Positions 2,283-24,017 of a DNA stretch of 36,100 bases are shown piece after piece. The notes beneath the pieces are model-generated. The model searched no databases. It saw only the letters and a list, made by a program, of their open reading frames with translations, and was not told the origin of the DNA. Position 1 is the stretch's first letter, and each line of letters begins with the position of its first letter. The translations under genes and the position numbers were made by a program. Origin of the DNA: a virus; the IMG/VR virus record IMGVR_UViG_3300042485_003881, positions 1-36,100 of that record; one strand, 5' to 3'.

Positions 2283-2621
2283 ATGAATAATTTAGAATCT
2301 AATATTTGGGGTAAGAAAAAATTTTCTGATCTCTTAAAAGAAATTTACGATAACCAAAAGAAAAAAGAAGCTCAAATTTCTGCTCTTATTGGTGAATTAA
2401 AACCATTAATTAACGATATTGGTGATGCTACCTTAATTGTTCCATTAATTAAAGAATATATGGAATTAGGTATTAAAAATGATGAACAATTAATTAAAAT
2501 GGTTAATATAGCTCAACGTGCCTTAGCTTCTGGTAAATCTGAAGAAGAATCTTTTGGTATGACTGATGAAGAAAAAACTCAATTATTAAATGAAGTAAAA
2601 AAATTTAATCCTAAGGACTAA
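2283..2621 (+). CDS. Helical protein of unknown function (112 aa)
   Basis: The 112-residue protein appears all-helical: a Lys-rich N-terminal coiled coil (about residues 13-40), a hydrophobic middle (LKPLINDIGDATLIVPLIKE) and an acidic C-terminus. Its stop overlaps the start of the spike gene (TAATG), so it is probably made with the tail proteins. It could be a small baseplate component or tail assembly chaperone, by position only. No family recognised. Confidence 0.65.
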   Translation: MNNLESNIWGKKKFSDLLKEIYDNQKKKEAQISALIGELKPLINDIGDATLIVPLIKEYMELGIKNDEQLIKMVNIAQRALASGKSEEESFGMTDEEKTQLLNEVKKFNPKD

Positions 2622-3862
2622 TGACTTCATATAATATACGCACAGTAGTTAATAATGCCTCAAGTAAAAGCAGTAATAAAGGAACTAAATCACAAAATTC
2701 ATCTTTTTTTGTTAGAGTATTAAGTGTAAATTTAGAACCTAATCAATCATTAACCTCAATAGGTACAATTACTGGAGAAAAAATTTCTACTAATTTTGTC
2801 AATCCTTCAAATAATATTCTTGCAAATATTAAACCTAAAAACCCATATATAAAAATCTTTCCTTTAGTTAATGAAATAGTTAAAGTAGAATCTGCTCCTT
2901 CACCTAATGGAAATACTAGACAACTTGTTTATGATTATCCTATTTCTTTATATGGATCTACCTCTTTAAATATTAATCCAAAACCTCCTTTATCTGTAAA
3001 TTTAAATACTATATCTAAAAAATCAGATTATACTCAAGTTGAAAATGGAGCTTATAATGTAATAAATAATAATAGTGCACCCCCAAGCTATACTCCTAAT
3101 GTTTTAGTTCCATCAACTTTTAAAGAAAAAGGAAATATTCATCCATTATTACCATTTTCCGGAGATATAATATATGAAGGTAGATGGGGACAAAGTTTAC
3201 GCTTTGGTAGTACTTCTAAAACAACCGGCAACTTTCAAAATTTATGGTCAAATTCAGGAAATGATGGGGACCCTATTATTATTTTAAGAAATGGTCAAGA
3301 TCCAAATTCTTCTACAAATGGAGCAGAACCAATAATAGAAAATATAAAAAAAGATTTATCATCGATTTATTTAACTTCTTACCAAAAAATTCCATTTAGT
3401 ATTACTAATGAAAATTTTTATTCTTATTCTAAAGATTCTCAACCTACAGAACCAGCATTATATACTCTTCCCCAAATAATAATAAATTCAGATAGAATAG
3501 TTTTAAATGCTAAAAATGATAATGTTTTAATAAGTGGTGAAAAGTCTGTTGGTTTATTTTCAAATAAAAGTATTAATTTAGAAGCTAGACAAGTATGTAT
3601 TAGCTCTAATAATGTTAAATTAGGGAATATAAATGCAGATCAATCTGTAATATTAGGAGATTTAGCAGTAGAATATTTAAAAATAATAGTTACTGAAATT
3701 TCAAATTTAGCAACTGCATTAAAATCAACAAATTTATGGCCTGGAGGATCCCCAGTTCCTGATTCTGCTATGTTAGTAGTAGCTTCTCAAGCTGAAGCTA
3801 ATTTAGAAACTATTAAGAGTAAATTAGATTTAATTAAATCAAATTTTGTTAAAACAATTTAA
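2621..3862 (+). CDS. Baseplate central spike / hub protein (gp5-like, OB-fold plus beta-helix)
   Basis: This 413-residue protein has a disordered Ser/Asn/Lys-rich N-terminus (about 1-25). A beta-rich region follows that includes FPLVNEIVKVESAP and the segment GDIIYEGRWGQSLRFGST (about 187-204), which I associate with phage baseplate spike proteins. Residues about 285-350 show short alternating repeats such as INSDRIVLNAKNDNVLISG and KSINLEARQVCISS, as in the beta-helix of VgrG/gp5 spikes. The last 60 residues are helical. Such proteins form the trimeric needle that punctures the outer membrane. No lysozyme domain is visible; the cell-wall enzyme may be the next gene. It is followed after 2 bases by the DUF5675-like gene. 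Confidence 0.7.
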   Translation: MTSYNIRTVVNNASSKSSNKGTKSQNSSFFVRVLSVNLEPNQSLTSIGTITGEKISTNFVNPSNNILANIKPKNPYIKIFPLVNEIVKVESAPSPNGNTRQLVYDYPISLYGSTSLNINPKPPLSVNLNTISKKSDYTQVENGAYNVINNNSAPPSYTPNVLVPSTFKEKGNIHPLLPFSGDIIYEGRWGQSLRFGSTSKTTGNFQNLWSNSGNDGDPIIILRNGQDPNSSTNGAEPIIENIKKDLSSIYLTSYQKIPFSITNENFYSYSKDSQPTEPALYTLPQIIINSDRIVLNAKNDNVLISGEKSVGLFSNKSINLEARQVCISSNNVKLGNINADQSVILGDLAVEYLKIIVTEISNLATALKSTNLWPGGSPVPDSAMLVVASQAEANLETIKSKLDLIKSNFVKTI

Positions 3863-3864
3863 AT

Positions 3865-4869
3865 ATGCCTCTTAAAAGATCAATATTATTAAATCACCCA
3901 TCACCCCTTAAAGATGTTAATACTTTTAAACCTTTACTTTTAAATGGAGCATACGTTGCTTACTCTGATCTTCCTGATATGTTTAAATCTTTTGTTAAGC
4001 GTACAGATAAAATTACTATTATTAGAGAAATAAATGATATTAATGCAAGAAAAGGCAATGTATCTTATGGAGGAAGAACCCAAGGTACTTTATGGCATGG
4101 AGGAGAAGTTTTAGGGTTTACAGTTGAAGATACTGTTAGAAACCAAAAAATCGCAAATGAAACAGCTATCCCTGACACCCTCCCAGATAATTTCTTACCT
4201 ACATCAGCTTACCCAGAAAATTTATATACTATTTTATTAAGTGGTACAACTTCTTCAGACTGGATTCCTCAAACTTTTTATAAAGGTAAAGGATTAGTGC
4301 TTAGCTCTAAATTTTCCGTAAGTGACAGAAACATTTATAATGAGGATGTTTATTCCCCGGGTTTTGCTACTGATAGACCAAGAACCGATCGAAACAACAA
4401 AAAAAAATATTTAGCATTTGATGGTAGTTGGATCCACCATGGAGGTTCAGAAAAAGATTCTTCAGGCTGTGTATTACTAAGTAATACAAGACTAGAAAAT
4501 GGACAAGTAGTAACATCTGCAGGCTCATGTAAAGCATTAAACTTATTTTTATTAAATAATAATCTGGTAGGCCCAGGAATAAATCAACAATTAGTAATAG
4601 TTAATGCTTTTAATTTTGATAGTCCTGAATATTTTGAAGAAATTGATTTTGAAATTGAAGGTAAACCAAATACAACCCCAAATTCTCCATCAAAACCTCC
4701 TACTTCCTCTGAAACCTCCAGTCCCTATGTAAATTATTCAACAAATAAGTTTGGAGATAAAAGCATAAGAATAACAACAATAGATGGTTCACCTAAAATA
4801 ATATGGTTAGAAAAAGATACTGACAAAGAATATTACCTTATTAATGATGAAAAGGTATTTCCATTTTAG
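3865..4869 (+). CDS. DUF5675 / L,D-transpeptidase-like tail protein
   Basis: The 334-residue protein contains the segment TQGTLWHGGEVLGFTVEDT (about 75-93) and, later, WIHHGG followed by SSGCVLLS (H191, H192, S200, G201, C202). This His-Gly...Ser-x-Gly-Cys pattern is shared by YkuD L,D-transpeptidases and the related DUF5675 phage/secretion-system proteins. The C-terminus (about 270-334) is a Pro/Ser/Thr linker plus a small beta-rich tail. Lying 2 bases after the spike gene, it probably acts on peptidoglycan as part of the baseplate or at lysis. Catalysis is inferred from the Cys/His pattern; a purely structural role is possible. Confidence 0.65.
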   Translation: MPLKRSILLNHPSPLKDVNTFKPLLLNGAYVAYSDLPDMFKSFVKRTDKITIIREINDINARKGNVSYGGRTQGTLWHGGEVLGFTVEDTVRNQKIANETAIPDTLPDNFLPTSAYPENLYTILLSGTTSSDWIPQTFYKGKGLVLSSKFSVSDRNIYNEDVYSPGFATDRPRTDRNNKKKYLAFDGSWIHHGGSEKDSSGCVLLSNTRLENGQVVTSAGSCKALNLFLLNNNLVGPGINQQLVIVNAFNFDSPEYFEEIDFEIEGKPNTTPNSPSKPPTSSETSSPYVNYSTNKFGDKSIRITTIDGSPKIIWLEKDTDKEYYLINDEKVFPF

Positions 4870-4873
4870 TAAG

Positions 4874-4881
4874 TATAAATA
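4874..4881 (+). promoter_or_regulatory. Exact match to T4 late-promoter box TATAAATA
   Basis: TATAAATA at 4874-4881, in the gap 4870-4912 and 31 bases before the next ATG. In T4, gp55 recognises this box as the late -10 element, and a gp55-like gene is encoded at 1512. The orientation and spacing are right for transcription of 4913 onward. The sequence is so AT-rich that chance matches are expected, so confidence is modest. Confidence 0.35.
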
Positions 4882-4912
4882 AAAATAATATTTAGCAGAC
4901 TACCCTAAACAA

Positions 4913-6031
4913 ATGATAGAAAATAAACCAGATTTTAAAAAAAATCTTTCTTCTAAAAAAACTCCCCCTAATAAATCTGATATATCATATGATATAACTT
5001 CTGAAGGATATGAATCTAAAGAAATTATTCCATATAAAGGAGATGGAACCCCTAAAAGTGATATAGGAGTAATATCTTTAATTCCTATTGAAAAATCATT
5101 AGAAATAGATAAAATAAAATCTTCTCAATTAGATAAATCTCAAATAAATAAATTATCCAAAGATAAAAAAAATTCCGAATATTTTAAACAAGAAAAATTA
5201 TCTAAAAAAATCCAAGAATTAAAAACGATTGTTATTCCTACTTTGTTAACCCTAATAGCTAAATTTGGAGTTACTAAAGCTACAGAACTAGTTAATAAAG
5301 AAAAATCAGAAATCCAAAATAAATTATCTAAAATAAAATTATGTCCTTCTAAACCAGAAATTGAAAAAATAATAAAAACAAAAAATAAACTAGTTAAAAT
5401 AATAGAAAATAGTTTAAAAATAATAGATATAACCGTTAAATCTTTAGGTATAGTTGAAGGTCTATTAATCATTATTGAAACCTCTTTTAAAATTTTTAAA
5501 AATCTCCCAATCCCCGTCTCTACAGGTGTGCCCGGAGTACCTGGTCTTCCAACTAATGTAATATTAGGGATTCAAGATAATAAAGATAAACTTTTAAAAA
5601 GAATAGAATCTCTTAAAAAAATAAATGAAAGTATATTAGGTATATTAATTTTATTAAAATCTACTCTAGAATTAGTTTTAAAATTACTTAATTTGTTAGA
5701 TATGTTACTTCAATCATGTATTCAAGAAGATCAAGAAAACCAAGAAGATCAAGAAGATCGAGAAACTAATCTATTAGCTACTCTTCAAAATTTAACCCTT
5801 GAACAATCAAATCAAGAATCTCCTGTAGTTACAAATATAAATGGGTTTACAATGGGAGTTGAAACTGAACCAAAAATTTCAACTTTATCTATAAAACGTA
5901 GAAGAGCTATAGCTACAAATAAACAAGGTATAGTAATGTTAACAGGAGAATGGTCATTTAGTTCAATTGACCAAATTTTAATTAATGAACTTATATTTTA
6001 TATTCAACAAAATGATTTAAGAGCAGATTAA
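4913..6031 (+). CDS. Virion/baseplate protein with hydrophobic helices
   Basis: The 372-residue protein has a disordered, Lys/Ser-rich N-terminus (about 1-100), then several long hydrophobic helices (for example IVIPTLLTLIAKFG, SILGILILLKSTLELVLK) separated by a Pro/Gly loop containing GVPGVPGLP. An acidic Gln/Glu/Asp repeat follows (about 271-285), then a C-terminal domain ending LINELIFYIQQNDLRAD. It lies among baseplate genes, so it is probably a virion component. The hydrophobic helices could insert in a membrane during DNA entry, which is an inference. I recall similar unnamed proteins in related phages but cannot name a family. Confidence 0.65.
   Translation: MIENKPDFKKNLSSKKTPPNKSDISYDITSEGYESKEIIPYKGDGTPKSDIGVISLIPIEKSLEIDKIKSSQLDKSQINKLSKDKKNSEYFKQEKLSKKIQELKTIVIPTLLTLIAKFGVTKATELVNKEKSEIQNKLSKIKLCPSKPEIEKIIKTKNKLVKIIENSLKIIDITVKSLGIVEGLLIIIETSFKIFKNLPIPVSTGVPGVPGLPTNVILGIQDNKDKLLKRIESLKKINESILGILILLKSTLELVLKLLNLLDMLLQSCIQEDQENQEDQEDRETNLLATLQNLTLEQSNQESPVVTNINGFTMGVETEPKISTLSIKRRRAIATNKQGIVMLTGEWSFSSIDQILINELIFYIQQNDLRAD
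5723..5765 (+). repeat. Short degenerate 9-base repeats (CAAGAAGAT)
   Basis: Imperfect tandem copies of CAAGAAGAT inside the gene at 4913, encoding Gln-Glu-Asp/Asn triplets. It marks a flexible acidic linker before the C-terminal domain. Replication slippage probably produced it. Confidence 0.6.
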
Positions 6032-6049: not shown

Positions 6050-6385
6050 ATGAAAACCACAGATTTTAAAAAAATTATTAAAGAAGCAGTAAAGGAAGCA
6101 ATTCAAGAAGAATTAAAGGATATTCTATTAGAAGCAGTAAAATCTTCTAAACAAATAGTAAGAGAATCTTACACTCCTACTTCTACCCCTAATCCATCTT
6201 ATGCACCACCATCTATAGATTTTAGATCTAAATATGCTGAAGTATTAGGAGAAACAGCTTTAAGTTTTAACTCACAAAACACTCAACCATTTACACCACA
6301 AATGGGAGACCCAGTAAATGGAAGTTTAGGAGATGGAGAATTAGGTATAGATCAAATAATGGGCCTTTTAAATACTAATAAATAA
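6050..6385 (+). CDS. Small protein with capsid-targeting-like N-terminal helix
   Basis: The 111-residue protein begins MKTTDFKKIIKEAVKEAI, an amphipathic helix with I10-K11-E12, the (I/L)xE pattern shared by many proteins at 21170-34577. After about residue 45 it becomes Pro/Ser/Thr-rich and probably disordered, ending GDGELGIDQIMGLLNTNK. It overlaps the gp25-like gene (TAATG) and lies within the baseplate cluster. It may therefore be a baseplate-associated small protein that only resembles the tagged set, or a packaged protein placed among tail genes. No family recognised. Confidence 0.65.
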   Translation: MKTTDFKKIIKEAVKEAIQEELKDILLEAVKSSKQIVRESYTPTSTPNPSYAPPSIDFRSKYAEVLGETALSFNSQNTQPFTPQMGDPVNGSLGDGELGIDQIMGLLNTNK

Positions 6386-6789
6386 TGGCATTTTCTCCAG
6401 TTAAAAAATTTTTAAGTGATTTAAATCCAAACATAGGAGTTGGAGTAAATTTACCTTTAAGTGGACCTTCTGTTTTTACTTCTAATTATACAACAAAAGA
6501 AGCTATTAAAAATAACTTAATTAATTATTTTTTAACTAATCCTGGAGAATTACCATTAAATCCTACCTTTGGGTCAGGTTTAAGATCTTATATTTTTGAA
6601 CAAATATCACAAGATTTATTAAGTAATTTAGAAGAATATATTATCCAAAAAATAAATTTTTATTTTTCAATGATATCAATTGATAGTCTTGTAATTACTC
6701 AACAAGAAGATACTAACTTAATTAGAGTAATTTTAAAATATAATATTATTGATACAAATATGACAGATACACTAAACATCCAACTATAA
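6385..6789 (+). CDS. 25: gp25-like baseplate wedge protein (GPW/gp25 family)
   Basis: The 134-residue protein has the family's typical length and core pattern. NLINYFLTNPGELPLNPTFG is followed by SGLRSYIFE, the counterpart of the 'LLT.PGE....P.FGSGL' signature of GPW/gp25 proteins. These are the conserved wedge/sheath-initiator proteins of contractile tails; they anchor the sheath to the baseplate and have a T4-lysozyme-like fold without lysozyme activity. The start overlaps the preceding stop (TAATG) and the gp6-like gene begins 2 bases after its stop, the usual wedge-gene order. Confidence 0.92.
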   Translation: MAFSPVKKFLSDLNPNIGVGVNLPLSGPSVFTSNYTTKEAIKNNLINYFLTNPGELPLNPTFGSGLRSYIFEQISQDLLSNLEEYIIQKINFYFSMISIDSLVITQQEDTNLIRVILKYNIIDTNMTDTLNIQL

Positions 6790-6791
6790 AA

Positions 6792-8621
6792 ATGAATAAT
6801 ACAAATAGAGATATAAAATACATTAATCGAGATTTTTTAGATTTTAAAGAACGATTAATTGAATTTACAAAAGTTTATTACCCTTCCACTTACACAGACT
6901 TTTCAGAGGCATCCCCAGGAATGATGTTTATAGAACAAGCTTCATATGTAGGAGATGTTTTAAGTTTTTATTTAGATAATCAATTTCAAGAAACTTTTCT
7001 ACAATACTCTCAACAAACTAATAATATATTTGAGTTAGCATACATGTTTGGGTATAAACCAAAAACAACCGGAGCATCTCAAGTAGACATTGATTTTTAT
7101 CAACAAATTCCATCTAAATTAATAGGAAATGAATATGTCCCTGATTACGACTATGCAGTAAATATTCCAGAAAATACTTCTATTTCAGGATTTTTAATTC
7201 AAGATAAAATTGATTTTTCTCGTTCAAGTTCCCAAGACCCAACTAATGTAACAATTTACCAAATCTCTAATAATAAACCTCAATATTATTTATTAAAAAA
7301 GACTAGAAAAGCAATTTCCTCAATAATTAAATCTCAAACATTCCCCTTTACAACCCCAGAACCATTTACAACCATTAATATTCAAGATAGTAATATTATA
7401 AAAGTATTAGATATTACTGATTCTGATGGTAATATATGGTATGAAGTAGATCATTTAGCACAAGAAATGGTATTTGATTCAATAAAAAATACTAATATTA
7501 ATGACCCAAATAAAATAGACGATACTCCATTTTTATTAAAATTAAAAAAAGTTGCAAGAAGATTTGCAACTCGTTTTACATCTTTAACAAATTTACAAAT
7601 TCAATTTGGAGCGGGTTCACCAACTGATACAACTGAAGAAATTACTCCAAATCCTAATAATGTAGGTATTGGTTTACCCTTTAAAAAAGATAAATTAACT
7701 ACAGCATTTTCTCCAACAAATTTTCTTTATACAGGAACATATGGTATTGCACCCGCAAACACAACATTAACCGTTAGATATTTAACCGGAGGTGGAGTTG
7801 GATCTAATGCACCAGCAAATTCAATTACAAATTTTAATTCTACTAATATTAAATTTTCTCAATTTAATTTAGATCCTACTTTATCTAATTATGTAATAGA
7901 ATCAATATCTACTAATAATATTAACCCCGCTTCTGGAGGAAAAGGGGGAGACACAACAGAAGAAATTCGCCAAAATACTCTTGCATTAGTTGCATCCCAA
8001 AAACGTTCAGTTACTGCAGATGATTATTTAATTAGAGCTTTAAGTATGCCTTCTGAATATGGTTCAATTTCAAAAGCATATATTGAACAACCTAAATTAA
8101 CAGATAATCAAGTATCAACTATTGAAACATTATGTTTATATGTTTTATCTTTAAATTCTGCTGGGCAATTAAACTATGCTAATACAACTTTAAAAAATAA
8201 TTTAAGAACTTATATGTCTCAATATAGAATGATTGGAGATAATATAGAAATTAGAGATGCATACATTATTAATATTGGAATTAATTTTGAAATTATAGTA
8301 TTGCCTGAGTATAATAATAACGAAGTTTTAATAAGTTGTATAAATTCTTTAAAATCTTATTTTTTAATTGATAAATGGCAATTAAATCAACCTATCATAA
8401 TACAAGAATTATTTATTCTTTTAGATAAAATTAAAGGTGTTCAAACTGTAAAAGAAATACTTATTTCAAATAAGGCAGGAAGTCAATTAGGTTATTCTCA
8501 ATATTCTTATGATATAAAAGGAGCTACCCAAAATCACATTATTTATCCTTCATTAGATCCTAGCATTTTTGAAATAAGATACCCTGATAGTGATATAAAA
8601 GGTAGAGTAGTTCCTTTATAA
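6792..8621 (+). CDS. 6: gp6-like baseplate wedge protein (baseplate J family)
   Basis: The 609-residue protein opens with a segment typical of T4 gp6/phage J wedge proteins: YTDFSEASPGMMFIEQASYV (about 36-55), then LSFYLDNQFQETFL and the FGYKPK box (about 91-96). The middle is a beta-rich insertion. The conserved 'T..DY...al' region appears as KRSVTADDYLIRAL (about 400-413). The C-terminal domain (about 480-609) is alpha/beta with SYFLIDKWQLNQPIIIQEL. gp6 forms the ring that joins the six wedges. It is close to the length of T4 gp6 and follows the gp25-like gene directly. The call is secure at family level. Confidence 0.92.
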   Translation: MNNTNRDIKYINRDFLDFKERLIEFTKVYYPSTYTDFSEASPGMMFIEQASYVGDVLSFYLDNQFQETFLQYSQQTNNIFELAYMFGYKPKTTGASQVDIDFYQQIPSKLIGNEYVPDYDYAVNIPENTSISGFLIQDKIDFSRSSSQDPTNVTIYQISNNKPQYYLLKKTRKAISSIIKSQTFPFTTPEPFTTINIQDSNIIKVLDITDSDGNIWYEVDHLAQEMVFDSIKNTNINDPNKIDDTPFLLKLKKVARRFATRFTSLTNLQIQFGAGSPTDTTEEITPNPNNVGIGLPFKKDKLTTAFSPTNFLYTGTYGIAPANTTLTVRYLTGGGVGSNAPANSITNFNSTNIKFSQFNLDPTLSNYVIESISTNNINPASGGKGGDTTEEIRQNTLALVASQKRSVTADDYLIRALSMPSEYGSISKAYIEQPKLTDNQVSTIETLCLYVLSLNSAGQLNYANTTLKNNLRTYMSQYRMIGDNIEIRDAYIINIGINFEIIVLPEYNNNEVLISCINSLKSYFLIDKWQLNQPIIIQELFILLDKIKGVQTVKEILISNKAGSQLGYSQYSYDIKGATQNHIIYPSLDPSIFEIRYPDSDIKGRVVPL

Positions 8622-18952: not shown

Positions 18953-19411
18953 ATGTCAAAATGGTTTTACAACGATAAATGGATAGAATCTATTGAAGAT
19001 TTTCCCCAAGGAACCTATGGTTTCATTTATATTTCTGTTCATATCCCTACTAATAAATCTTATTTAGGTAAAAAATCTTTATACCATAATGTAAAGAAAA
19101 AACTAGGCAAAAAAGAATTAGCTGAACAACCTGTAACTAGAGGGAGAACATCTACTACAAAACAAATCATAAAAGAATCCGATTGGAAAACCTACTATGG
19201 CTCAGCAAAACCTATACTTGAACTTATAAAATTAGGAAAACAAAAAGACTTTGATCGTAAAATTTTATGTATTGTTCCAAACAAAAAACTATTAACATAC
19301 TATGAATGTAAATATTTATTTAAATTAGGTGTTTTAGAAAATCCAAATGATTGGATAAATGATAATATTTTAGGAAAGTTTTTTCGAAAAGACTTTGTTT
19401 CCCAAGATTAA
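18953..19411 (+). CDS. GIY-YIG-type endonuclease
   Basis: The 152-residue protein shows the GIY-YIG pattern: the first strand YGFIYISVHI, then SYLGKK (about 38-43), followed downstream by DWKTYYGSAKPILELI (about 82-97), DFDRKIL and a Glu in LTYYECKYLF (about 120-129). T4-like phages carry many free-standing GIY-YIG proteins, some of them homing endonucleases (SegA-E type) and some repair-like. The YLGKK form with a Lys-rich insert resembles a phage group I know only as putative nucleases. Placement between tail genes and primase is typical for an invasive single gene, but codon use matches its neighbours, so it is not recent by that measure. Confidence 0.7.
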   Translation: MSKWFYNDKWIESIEDFPQGTYGFIYISVHIPTNKSYLGKKSLYHNVKKKLGKKELAEQPVTRGRTSTTKQIIKESDWKTYYGSAKPILELIKLGKQKDFDRKILCIVPNKKLLTYYECKYLFKLGVLENPNDWINDNILGKFFRKDFVSQD

Positions 19412-21712: not shown

Positions 21713-22513
21713 ATGATAAGTCTTATCCAATTATTAAAGGAAGTGCAAGATAGTCCTAAAGCTATTATATTAGCGGGAGCACCAGGATCTGGAAAAGGAA
21801 CTATTTTAAAAGATTTAAACTTAAGTAAATTTAAAATTCTTAACATTGATGATACTATAGCAGCTTTATCAAAACAAGATCAATTTACACTAGACCAAAA
21901 AACAGCAGATTCCGAAGATAGAAGTAAATTTATGTCGGCAATGCAAACTGCTGCAAAACAATTGAAAACTCAAGATTTACCTCAAACTATATTAAATAAA
22001 GAATCATTTATTTTAGATGGTACTGCTTCATCTCCAAACCAAACATTAAAACTAAAATCCCAACTTGAAGAAGCGGGATATAAAGTAATGATGTTATATG
22101 TTTATACTGAACTAGAAACATCTTTAAAACGCAATGAAGAACGATTTGAAAAATCAGGTGGAGAAGATAGAAGTTTACTTCCTGGTGCGGTGTTAGGAAC
22201 ATGGCTTATGGTAGCTAAAAATTTTCCTTTATATCAACAATTATTTGGTAATAACTTTGTATCGGTATCCAATACTGGTAATAACGAAACATTAAAAGAT
22301 ATTGATCAAATTATCCAAAAGTATGTTACCCCATTTGATCCAAAAGATCCAAAACAAAAAACTGAAAAAGAACAAGAAAAATCTAATAAATTAAAAGAAA
22401 AATTAAATATAGAAATTCAAAATTTCCTTGATTCTAATCTAGCTCAAAATATTATAAACTCCTCTGTTTCTAAAGAAGAAGCTCAATCTAAAATAAATGA
22501 ATTCATTAGTTAA
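21713..22513 (+). CDS. Tagged P-loop kinase (zeta/AAA_33-like)
   Basis: The 266-residue protein opens MISLIQLLKE, a capsid-targeting-like helix with L8-K9-E10. Walker A GAPGSGKGT (residues 22-30) follows almost immediately. LDGTASS and VMMLYVYTELETSLKRNEER match the Walker B-like strand and the Arg-rich lid of small P-loop kinases such as AAA_33, zeta toxin or polynucleotide kinase. Substrates in this superfamily include nucleotides, nucleic-acid ends and UDP-sugars; I cannot choose. The last 65 residues are a Lys/Glu-rich coiled coil. It overlaps the next gene by 17 bases, suggesting coupled translation. Confidence 0.8.
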   Translation: MISLIQLLKEVQDSPKAIILAGAPGSGKGTILKDLNLSKFKILNIDDTIAALSKQDQFTLDQKTADSEDRSKFMSAMQTAAKQLKTQDLPQTILNKESFILDGTASSPNQTLKLKSQLEEAGYKVMMLYVYTELETSLKRNEERFEKSGGEDRSLLPGAVLGTWLMVAKNFPLYQQLFGNNFVSVSNTGNNETLKDIDQIIQKYVTPFDPKDPKQKTEKEQEKSNKLKEKLNIEIQNFLDSNLAQNIINSSVSKEEAQSKINEFIS

Positions 22514-24017
22514 ATCACTTATATTTCCACTTTTAGAATCTGAACAAAAAGGTGTTGCTTTAATCCCTGGTGGTTTTAAACCTCCAACTATAGGGCATTT
22601 TGTATTAGTTAATGAAGTAGCACAAAATCCTAATTTTAATAAAGTAATTGTTTTAATAGGCCATAAAATAAGAGATGGTGTAACTAAAGAAGAAAGTTTA
22701 GCAGTATGGGATATCTATAAAAAATATCTCCCCTCTAACATTGAAATTAAAATTTCAGATAACTCTTCACCTATTGCAGATATTAGCTCACTTATAAAAA
22801 ACAATCCAGACACATACTTTTACCCAGTAGTTGGTATTCGAGGTGAAATGGATTTAGGTGATATAAAACGATTTGATAGTTTAGAAGGTAAATATCCTAA
22901 CTTTAAAACAATAGTAATTAAATCAAATGAAGGTAAAGATCGAGTTAGTGGAACAAACACTAGAGCTGCTTTAATTAGTGGAGAAAAAGAAAAATTTCAA
23001 TCATATCTTCCAACTGAATTATCACAAGAAGAAAAAGATGGGATTTGGTCTATTTTAACTAAAACCCCACTAAATGAAATAAAGTATGCTGAACCTAGCA
23101 AATTTGATTACCCAAAACAACTAAAAGCACTTACCGAATTTATGTTAGATAAGGGAATGAATATTAAACCTTTACCTAAAGTAAAATTTGTAGAAGATGA
23201 TGTTGAAAACGCTAGGAATTTTTTCGGTAAAACGGCGTATTACGATCGGAATCAACGCGTTATAGTACTTTATACAATGGATCGTCATCCAAAAGACATT
23301 ATGCGTTCATTTGCGCACGAAATGATTCACCACATGCAAAACTGTGAAGATCGTTTAAATGGTATTTCTACTCAAGACACAAACGAAGAAGGTAATTTGC
23401 CTGAAATTGAAAGAGAAGCATATGAAAAAGGAAATATGACTTTCCGAAACTGGACAGATACATTAACTGAAGGTGTATTTGAAGATAGAATTGAATGTGA
23501 TAATTGTGGATGGAGTTGGAAAATAAAAGATGGTGGAGATGACTTATATGTTTGTCATAAATGTGAACATGATAATACACCTAAACTATTAAACGAAGAA
23601 ACAGAAGAGGATAATGGTACTTTATTATATAAAAGCATATTTAAACCAGATATAAACATATTAGTTGCTTTTGGAAATTATGAAAATTATAAAATTTTAA
23701 AACCTTTATTTAATAAATATGGGTATGGTTTTTACTCCCCAGAAGATAAAACAATAATTCTTAATGGTGAACGTTTTATAAATTCTAATTTAGATTTTAG
23801 GGATTTTAAATTTGTTGAAGCACACGAAATAACCCATTTACTTTTAGGACATACAGGACCATATTCTGAAGAAGATGAAATGGATGCTGATTTAGGAGCA
23901 TATATTTTATTAAAAAATAAAAAGTTATCAACAGATAGACTTGTAAACGAATTTGAAAATAGACATGGTGTACCATTTACTGAAGAATTACTTGAACGAG
24001 TAAAAAATAGGTTGTAA
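22497..24017 (+). CDS. Tagged multidomain protein: NMNAT-like transferase, HExxHH peptidase, zinc ribbon, ImmA/IrrE-like peptidase
   Basis: The 506-residue protein has four parts. Residues 1-14 form a short helix ending L12-L-E14. A nucleotidyltransferase of the NMN adenylyltransferase/cytidylyltransferase type follows, with GGFKPPTIGH (25-34) and SGTNTR (151-156). A zinc peptidase carries H274-E275-x-x-H278-H279 and the later EREAYEKGN. A zinc ribbon uses C334, C337, C353 and C356. The last domain is an M78 (ImmA/IrrE)-like peptidase with H443-E444-x-x-H447 and LLLGH, then DEMDADLGAYILL. LxE sites at E14, E194, E325 and E367 fall at the domain joins. It probably acts as packaged cargo, possibly cut into separate enzymes in the prohead; this is inferred. 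Codon use shifts near 23215-23345. Confidence 0.85.
   Translation: MNSLVKSLIFPLLESEQKGVALIPGGFKPPTIGHFVLVNEVAQNPNFNKVIVLIGHKIRDGVTKEESLAVWDIYKKYLPSNIEIKISDNSSPIADISSLIKNNPDTYFYPVVGIRGEMDLGDIKRFDSLEGKYPNFKTIVIKSNEGKDRVSGTNTRAALISGEKEKFQSYLPTELSQEEKDGIWSILTKTPLNEIKYAEPSKFDYPKQLKALTEFMLDKGMNIKPLPKVKFVEDDVENARNFFGKTAYYDRNQRVIVLYTMDRHPKDIMRSFAHEMIHHMQNCEDRLNGISTQDTNEEGNLPEIEREAYEKGNMTFRNWTDTLTEGVFEDRIECDNCGWSWKIKDGGDDLYVCHKCEHDNTPKLLNEETEEDNGTLLYKSIFKPDINILVAFGNYENYKILKPLFNKYGYGFYSPEDKTIILNGERFINSNLDFRDFKFVEAHEITHLLLGHTGPYSEEDEMDADLGAYILLKNKKLSTDRLVNEFENRHGVPFTEELLERVKNRL

Follow-up and report, generated by a model that had tools for sequence, protein, structure and literature searches.

A DUF5675 protein encoded beside the presumed tail spike of a phage is probably an exchangeable peptidoglycan enzyme

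The gene that directly follows the presumed central spike gene in the window, a virus record of 36,100 bases, encodes a DUF5675 protein that is probably a tail-associated, exchangeable peptidoglycan enzyme. We read it as a tail-delivered peptidoglycan L,D-hydrolase and consider this reading probable. The preliminary description of this DNA had suggested that the phage may use a Cys-based peptidoglycan-active enzyme in its tail. That suggestion gains from an invariant His/Cys pair, a YkuD-like predicted fold, the fusions in two related loci (L128 and L154) and the replacement in relatives by GH19-type genes, by VanY or by a part with a sub-threshold CHAP match, whereas the accompanying spike label and YkuD membership were not sustained.

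Gene order and the presumed spike

The genes are encoded on one strand in the order presumed spike, DUF5675 gene, g4913, 111-aa gene, gp25 and gp6-like wedge protein (Table 1), and the gap of 2 bases previously given between the first two ORFs is correct. The host of the phage is likely to be a member of the Bacteroidota, since the wedge protein shares 45.9% identity with its counterpart in Flavobacterium phage immuto, which is annotated as a baseplate wedge protein. Elsewhere in the window, residues 15-189 of a 506-aa ORF (22497-24017) matched a cytidyltransferase PHROG and residues 394-480 a metallo-protease PHROG, and a 152-aa ORF (18953-19411) matched phrog_447, labelled NAD synthetase (E 3.3e-27), with a weaker match to a homing endonuclease PHROG.

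Table 1. Features of the tail locus in the window
Feature	Position	Strand	Basis
Conserved protein of 112 aa, encoded before the presumed spike	2283..2621	+	80 loci, the best 80 of 581 relatives in viral_contigs
Presumed central spike, 413 aa, without a detected lysozyme domain	2621..3862	+	Gene order
DUF5675 protein (slot gene), 334 aa, ATG start	3865..4869	+	Pfam PF18925, E 5.4e-6; predicted model
First DUF5675 motif block, residues 54-104 (R54 E55 ... R71 T72 ... E88 D89 ... P103)	4024..4176	+	Nearly invariant alignment columns
Putative catalytic segment W189-C202 (His191, 4435-4437; Cys202, 4468-4470)	4429..4470	+	Invariant in 24/24 rows
C-terminal tail from residue 256 to 334, made up of a linker and a beta segment of low confidence and lacking a recognisable docking hairpin	4630..4866	+	pLDDT mostly <50; hairpin test negative
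g4913, baseplate-operon protein, 372 aa	4913..6031	+	Alignment of relatives: like its counterparts in loci with a slot gene, its N-terminus is the second part of a split transthyretin/CarboxypepD_reg-like domain
Conserved 111-aa protein	6050..6385	+	Syntenic in relatives
gp25-like baseplate wedge protein	6385..6789	+	PF04965, E 7.7e-9; phrog_261
gp6-like baseplate wedge protein	6792..8621	+	phrog_219, E 1.5e-13

The upstream gene had been described as a spike without a lysozyme. No lysozyme domain was detected in its product by Pfam, PHROGs or NCBIfam, in agreement with that description, whereas the identity as a gp5-type spike was not confirmed. A 15-row alignment of the protein yielded no match to PDB sequences at E <= 1, no relation to T4 gp5 was found by hhalign, and the best PHROGs matches of its relatives had E values of 0.06-0.07. 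We retain the label of central spike as a presumption by analogy, because the gene precedes the genes for gp25 (PF04965) and the gp6-like wedge protein (phrog_219), as T4 gene 5 is located upstream of gene 6, and because a repetitive C-terminus points in the same direction.

The His/Cys protein and its predicted fold

The product of the slot gene matched the Pfam family DUF5675 (PF18925) with 26.7 bits, exactly the curated cut-off of 26.7; the genome-wide search with the same profile, which scores one stretch, gave 16.7 bits, below the cut-off. It has both conserved blocks of the family in addition to the match at the cut-off, and differs by an N-terminal extension, a C-terminal tail and the place beside the spike gene. 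Pfam assigns no function to DUF5675, and the papers in the searched library that mention the family give it as a list entry only. Searches with the single sequence retrieved no close relatives from phages (tblastn) and none that could be confirmed in viral_contigs, whereas a search with an alignment reached 27 DUF5675 loci. Comparison with PDB sequences yielded nothing meaningful, and a scan of genome_contigs with the DUF5675 alignment gave 97 stretches that fit a pattern, of which 0 were confirmed.

The WIHHGG...SSGC pattern that had drawn attention to the protein is contained in the segment WIHHGGSEKDSSGC (residues 189-202, nucleotides 4429-4470). An IHxG...GC segment with the His and the Cys is present in all rows of a 24-row alignment that leaves out near-identical copies and the slot protein of locus L138, and F185, H191, G193, E196, G201 and C202 are invariant in the 24 sequences, the window included. 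On the basis of these six residues the His/Cys pattern is confirmed to exceed chance, and the protein was aptly described as DUF5675-like. The L138 slot protein scored 41.8 bits with our own DUF profile, yet lacks the IHxG...GC segment; it is a protein of 539 aa (L138:7564-9183) with the first DUF5675 block only.

A comparison of the predicted structure with L,D-transpeptidases had been proposed as a check in the preliminary description. The AlphaFold2 model of the window protein had a mean pLDDT of 76.5, with 128 residues at >= 90 and poor values from residue 256 onward. Foldseek gave no match to the PDB under E 1e-3. When the Foldseek candidates were aligned with VIA-align, the six best rows were all YkuD-fold enzymes with peptidoglycan as substrate, aligned over 104-125 residues of model positions 20-254, namely Pgp2 (Z 7.9 and 7.5), Csd6 (6.7), Bd1075 (6.5), DpaA (6.0) and LdtA (5.6), followed by a seventh row at Z 3.1; Z values below 8 can reflect a common arrangement and are no proof of relation. 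Bd1075 is presumably of the same class as Pgp2 and Csd6, that is, an L,D-carboxypeptidase. A Foldseek search of BFVD gave five matches with E < 1e-3, of which one is named DUF5675 (Ralstonia phage RP31) and another, in the uncultured gut phage cr116_1, carries the name L,D-carboxypeptidase/transpeptidase, for which reason the fold assignment alone is not new.

Membership in the YkuD family was not supported by the sequence. The window protein had no match to Pfam YkuD (PF03734) at E <= 1, and its relative L027 reached E 0.06, below the cut-off. The published YkuD motif is H(S/G/D)X14-19C (PMC4599014), whereas H191 is followed by H192 in the window protein and only 10 residues separate H191 from C202. 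Comparison with E. coli LdtB/C/E by hhalign gave E 0.014 at a probability of 3%, which is not significant (an unrelated control pair gave E 0.01), and the value for DpaA was E 0.3. Identity to YkuD-fold enzymes is only about 8-14%, although the predicted fold and a His and a Cys are shared with Pgp2, Csd6, DpaA and LdtA and the SSGC of the window protein is as in E. coli LdtC and LdtE. So far as prediction goes, the protein works like a YkuD enzyme.

The place behind the presumed spike in related loci

For a census of the place between the presumed spike and g4913, hereafter the slot, relatives were collected as the best 80 of 373 from one search and the best 80 of 581 from a search with the 112-aa protein. 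After removal of 46 loci without spike or g4913 ORFs and 27 sequence duplicates, the 161 loci and the window were reduced to 89 distinct loci. The co-occurrence of spike and DUF5675 genes that the preliminary description proposed to examine is confined to a minority of these: among the matches listed, 7 have a separate DUF5675-type gene (the window, L027, L036, L063, L104, L126 and the degenerate L138), 2 have DUF5675 fused in frame to g4913 (L128, 637 aa, and L154, open at the contig end), 6 have a GH19-type gene, 9 have another gene and 65, including L080 with its broken spike ORF, have none. The enzyme is therefore dispensable in those 65 loci. The GH19-type genes are those of L073 and L100, the only ones above the Pfam GH19 cut-off, L049, L054 and L105, which fall below it, and L144, recognised by our own profile. 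A gene at the slot position in Mel-JY01 is annotated as putative chitinase and matched endolysin PHROGs (E 9.9e-33); like the GH19-type genes, it is located between the presumed spike and the next baseplate gene. GH19 is a glycan-cutting family, unlike the L,D-type enzyme proposed for the window. The nine other slot genes (L051, L070, L101, L110, L112, L117, L124, L139 and L143) had no family match above the cut-off among those scanned, and several of them end with the hairpin described in the last section.

We also inferred a quick tree from the C-terminal parts of g4913 (92 rows, without L076, L082, L087, L107 and L154 and with 8 DUF5675 loci added). Slot content required at least 18 changes on this tree, as compared to 25-31 in 200 shuffles, and so partly follows descent, yet has been exchanged often. 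For example, the g4913 C-terminal parts of L020, which has no slot gene, and of L101/L110, which have another gene, are 93% identical. On the evidence of this census, the place after the presumed spike is an exchange slot, and since relatives have other genes, some of them for wall enzymes, or none at the same place, the window gene is probably an exchangeable tool for the passage of the tail through the wall.

The 27 DUF5675 loci reached with the slot alignment form an uneven sample, which favours the setting from which the query was drawn: 22 are located within the spike-g4913 region or next to it (in two of these, L182 and L183, DUF5675 precedes the 111-aa gene and not g4913), and the other 5 are C-terminal parts of proteins of 979-1434 aa. 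Homology to gp033 of immuto was seen for three of these large proteins (L178, L185 and L186). The gp033 gene lies downstream of those for the sheath, tube and tape measure, and its product has a C-terminal VanY domain (E 6.6e-10); the L194 homologue ends with a CHAP match below the threshold. The homology is claimed for these three only, because L181 and L187 had no match to L186. A search for the wedge protein in the five contigs, which are fragments, gave no match. A large tail-type protein with swappable C-terminal parts, which are VanY, one without family assignment, a weak CHAP match or DUF5675, was seen in L192:10555-13371, L193:1734-5402, L194:1680-5387, L178, L185 and L186. In the podophage MW202697 (L198:7786-8417), a 140-aa DUF5675 gene directly follows a short ORF whose sequence we read as holin-like, and in Vibrio phage Virtus (OK381870) the DUF5675 gene precedes a gene with a TM helix. 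All these settings suit a wall enzyme.

The arrangements in MW202697 and Virtus would also fit an endolysin-type enzyme that lyses the cell when infection ends and whose gene merely sits within the structural operon. We consider this unlikely for the window protein, since DUF5675 is fused to the baseplate-operon protein in L128 and L154, baseplate genes flank the slot gene on both sides and the related phage immuto has a separately annotated lysozyme. Genes of virion-associated hydrolases are placed among tail genes or fused to them, and both the baseplate neighbours of the window gene and the two fusions conform to this. It seems similarly unlikely that the protein serves the baseplate in a structural or binding capacity and has lost catalysis: L138 at the same place has no His/Cys segment and most loci (65/89, among the matches listed) have no separate slot gene, but the His/Cys pair is invariant in 24/24 aligned sequences, L138 being outside the alignment. 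We give a slightly lower probability to an active L,D-transpeptidase-like enzyme whose reaction forms or exchanges bonds instead of cutting them, for example in sealing the wall after entry or in coupling a protein to it. Although the YkuD fold includes transpeptidases (LdtA is among the best rows) and Tlde1a performs both exchange and carboxypeptidation (PMC9638812), the slot is common to hydrolase families and the best five rows are Pgp2 (two entries), Csd6, Bd1075 and DpaA; Pgp2 and Csd6 have been described as L,D-carboxypeptidases and DpaA as a hydrolytic amidase.

As a tail-delivered L,D-hydrolase, the DUF5675 protein would form part of the baseplate beside the spike and would reach the periplasm on contraction. 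His191 would activate Cys202 as the nucleophile, and the target of cleavage would be an L,D bond within the peptide stems or else a protein tether attached to them, so that the tail tube could pass. Wall enzymes carried on phage tails are well established, T4 gp5 being one, and the DUF5675 enzyme would fill the role of the lysozyme domain inside the T4 spike. As with the gp5 lysozyme, a wall enzyme would be located at the spike and its gene lies upstream of the gene for the gp6-type wedge protein; the differences are that the window enzyme is encoded by a separate gene and has another predicted fold, and that no gp5 homology was found for the presumed spike. The T6SS effector Tlde1 (PF10908) would be similar in that a contractile machine delivers an L,D-acting enzyme, if the delivery and activity proposed for the window protein are correct. 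PF10908 gave weak sub-threshold matches in the relatives L063, L128, L180 and L186 and no match in the window, and Tlde1 kills rivals whereas the window enzyme would serve phage entry.

A split transthyretin-like domain at the joint in related loci

The homologues of g4913 in loci without a slot gene often start with a CarboxypepD_reg-like domain (sub-threshold Pfam matches). Residues of about 237-342 in the fused L128 protein resemble the CarboxypepD_reg/transthyretin-like domains of the SusC NTE (BT3090, Z 9.3) and carboxypeptidase D (Z 8.9). The pLDDT of this domain is about 80-89 except in a loop near 261-280 (about 50), in a model with a poor DUF5675 part and a mean pLDDT of 59.3 over its whole length. 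Where the two genes are separate, the break lies within that loop, the slot gene ending with the first hairpin and g4913 beginning with the remainder, so that, unlike in the SusC NTE and carboxypeptidase D, the domain is split between two genes, a cut known from sequence only. In L179:3532-5388, a single frame contains DUF5675, the whole CarboxypepD_reg-like domain and the start of g4913; a TAG stop then comes immediately before an ATG, from which the same frame continues through the remainder of g4913.

A profile built from 29 g4913 hairpins of loci without a slot gene matched, at >= 8 bits, 12/23 slot ORFs and 5/1892 other ORFs, one of the five running to the contig end and thus possibly a cut g4913. 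The hairpin is present in g4913 in 0/30 loci with a slot gene versus 48/62 loci without, the latter figure partly by construction. Slot genes contain it in 14/30 cases by the independent profile and in 29/30 by a profile trained on both, and hence partly on the same loci; the exception is the window. No hairpin was recognisable in the tail of the window protein, for which 595 of 2000 shuffles scored as high, and the tail had no relative better than E 0.57 among 2054 distinct ORFs. The window g4913 starts without a hairpin, in the manner of the split ones. Three frames were read from 4599 to 4960 for a frameshifted hairpin and none was seen. A programmed frameshift that joins the slot gene to the next gene was set aside, since gaps and frames vary at the joints.

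In the relatives, the hairpin of the separate slot proteins and the remainder in the next gene are perhaps a natural split-domain dock. Docking in the window is unproven, because its protein has no recognisable hairpin. We tentatively suggest that the incomplete transthyretin-like beta-sandwich of g4913 could be a socket to which interchangeable enzymes (DUF5675, GH19-type and others) would bring the missing hairpin, close to their C-terminus, as a plug, so that any plugged enzyme would be loaded beside the spike, with the window as a member that would have lost or replaced its plug. It is quite possible, and we put this a little higher, that the hairpin is a mere scar or homology arm of slot-swapping recombination with no role in docking. 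Slot content differs between close relatives such as L020 and L101/L110, so that a shared joint sequence would ease exchange, and the window manages without the hairpin. Against a scar, the hairpin is conserved like the enzyme core (means of 0.69 and 0.72 in 7 DUF5675 rows without the window) and better than the tail that follows (0.42), slot proteins that are not related to one another have it, and the next gene retains only the complementary part of the domain.

In a limited literature search we found nothing that pairs crAss-like phages with a transpeptidase, and the exchange slot and the split domain may be new. If the preferred reading is true, DUF5675 would become a family of L,D-acting wall enzymes on phage tails that is open to testing, and these phages would provide a natural series of close relatives that differ in the wall enzyme at one tail position. 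If the split domain docks, it would explain how the enzyme can be changed in tails without redesign of the spike and could provide a tag pair for fixing proteins together; a true socket would be nature's counterpart of engineered split-domain tags.
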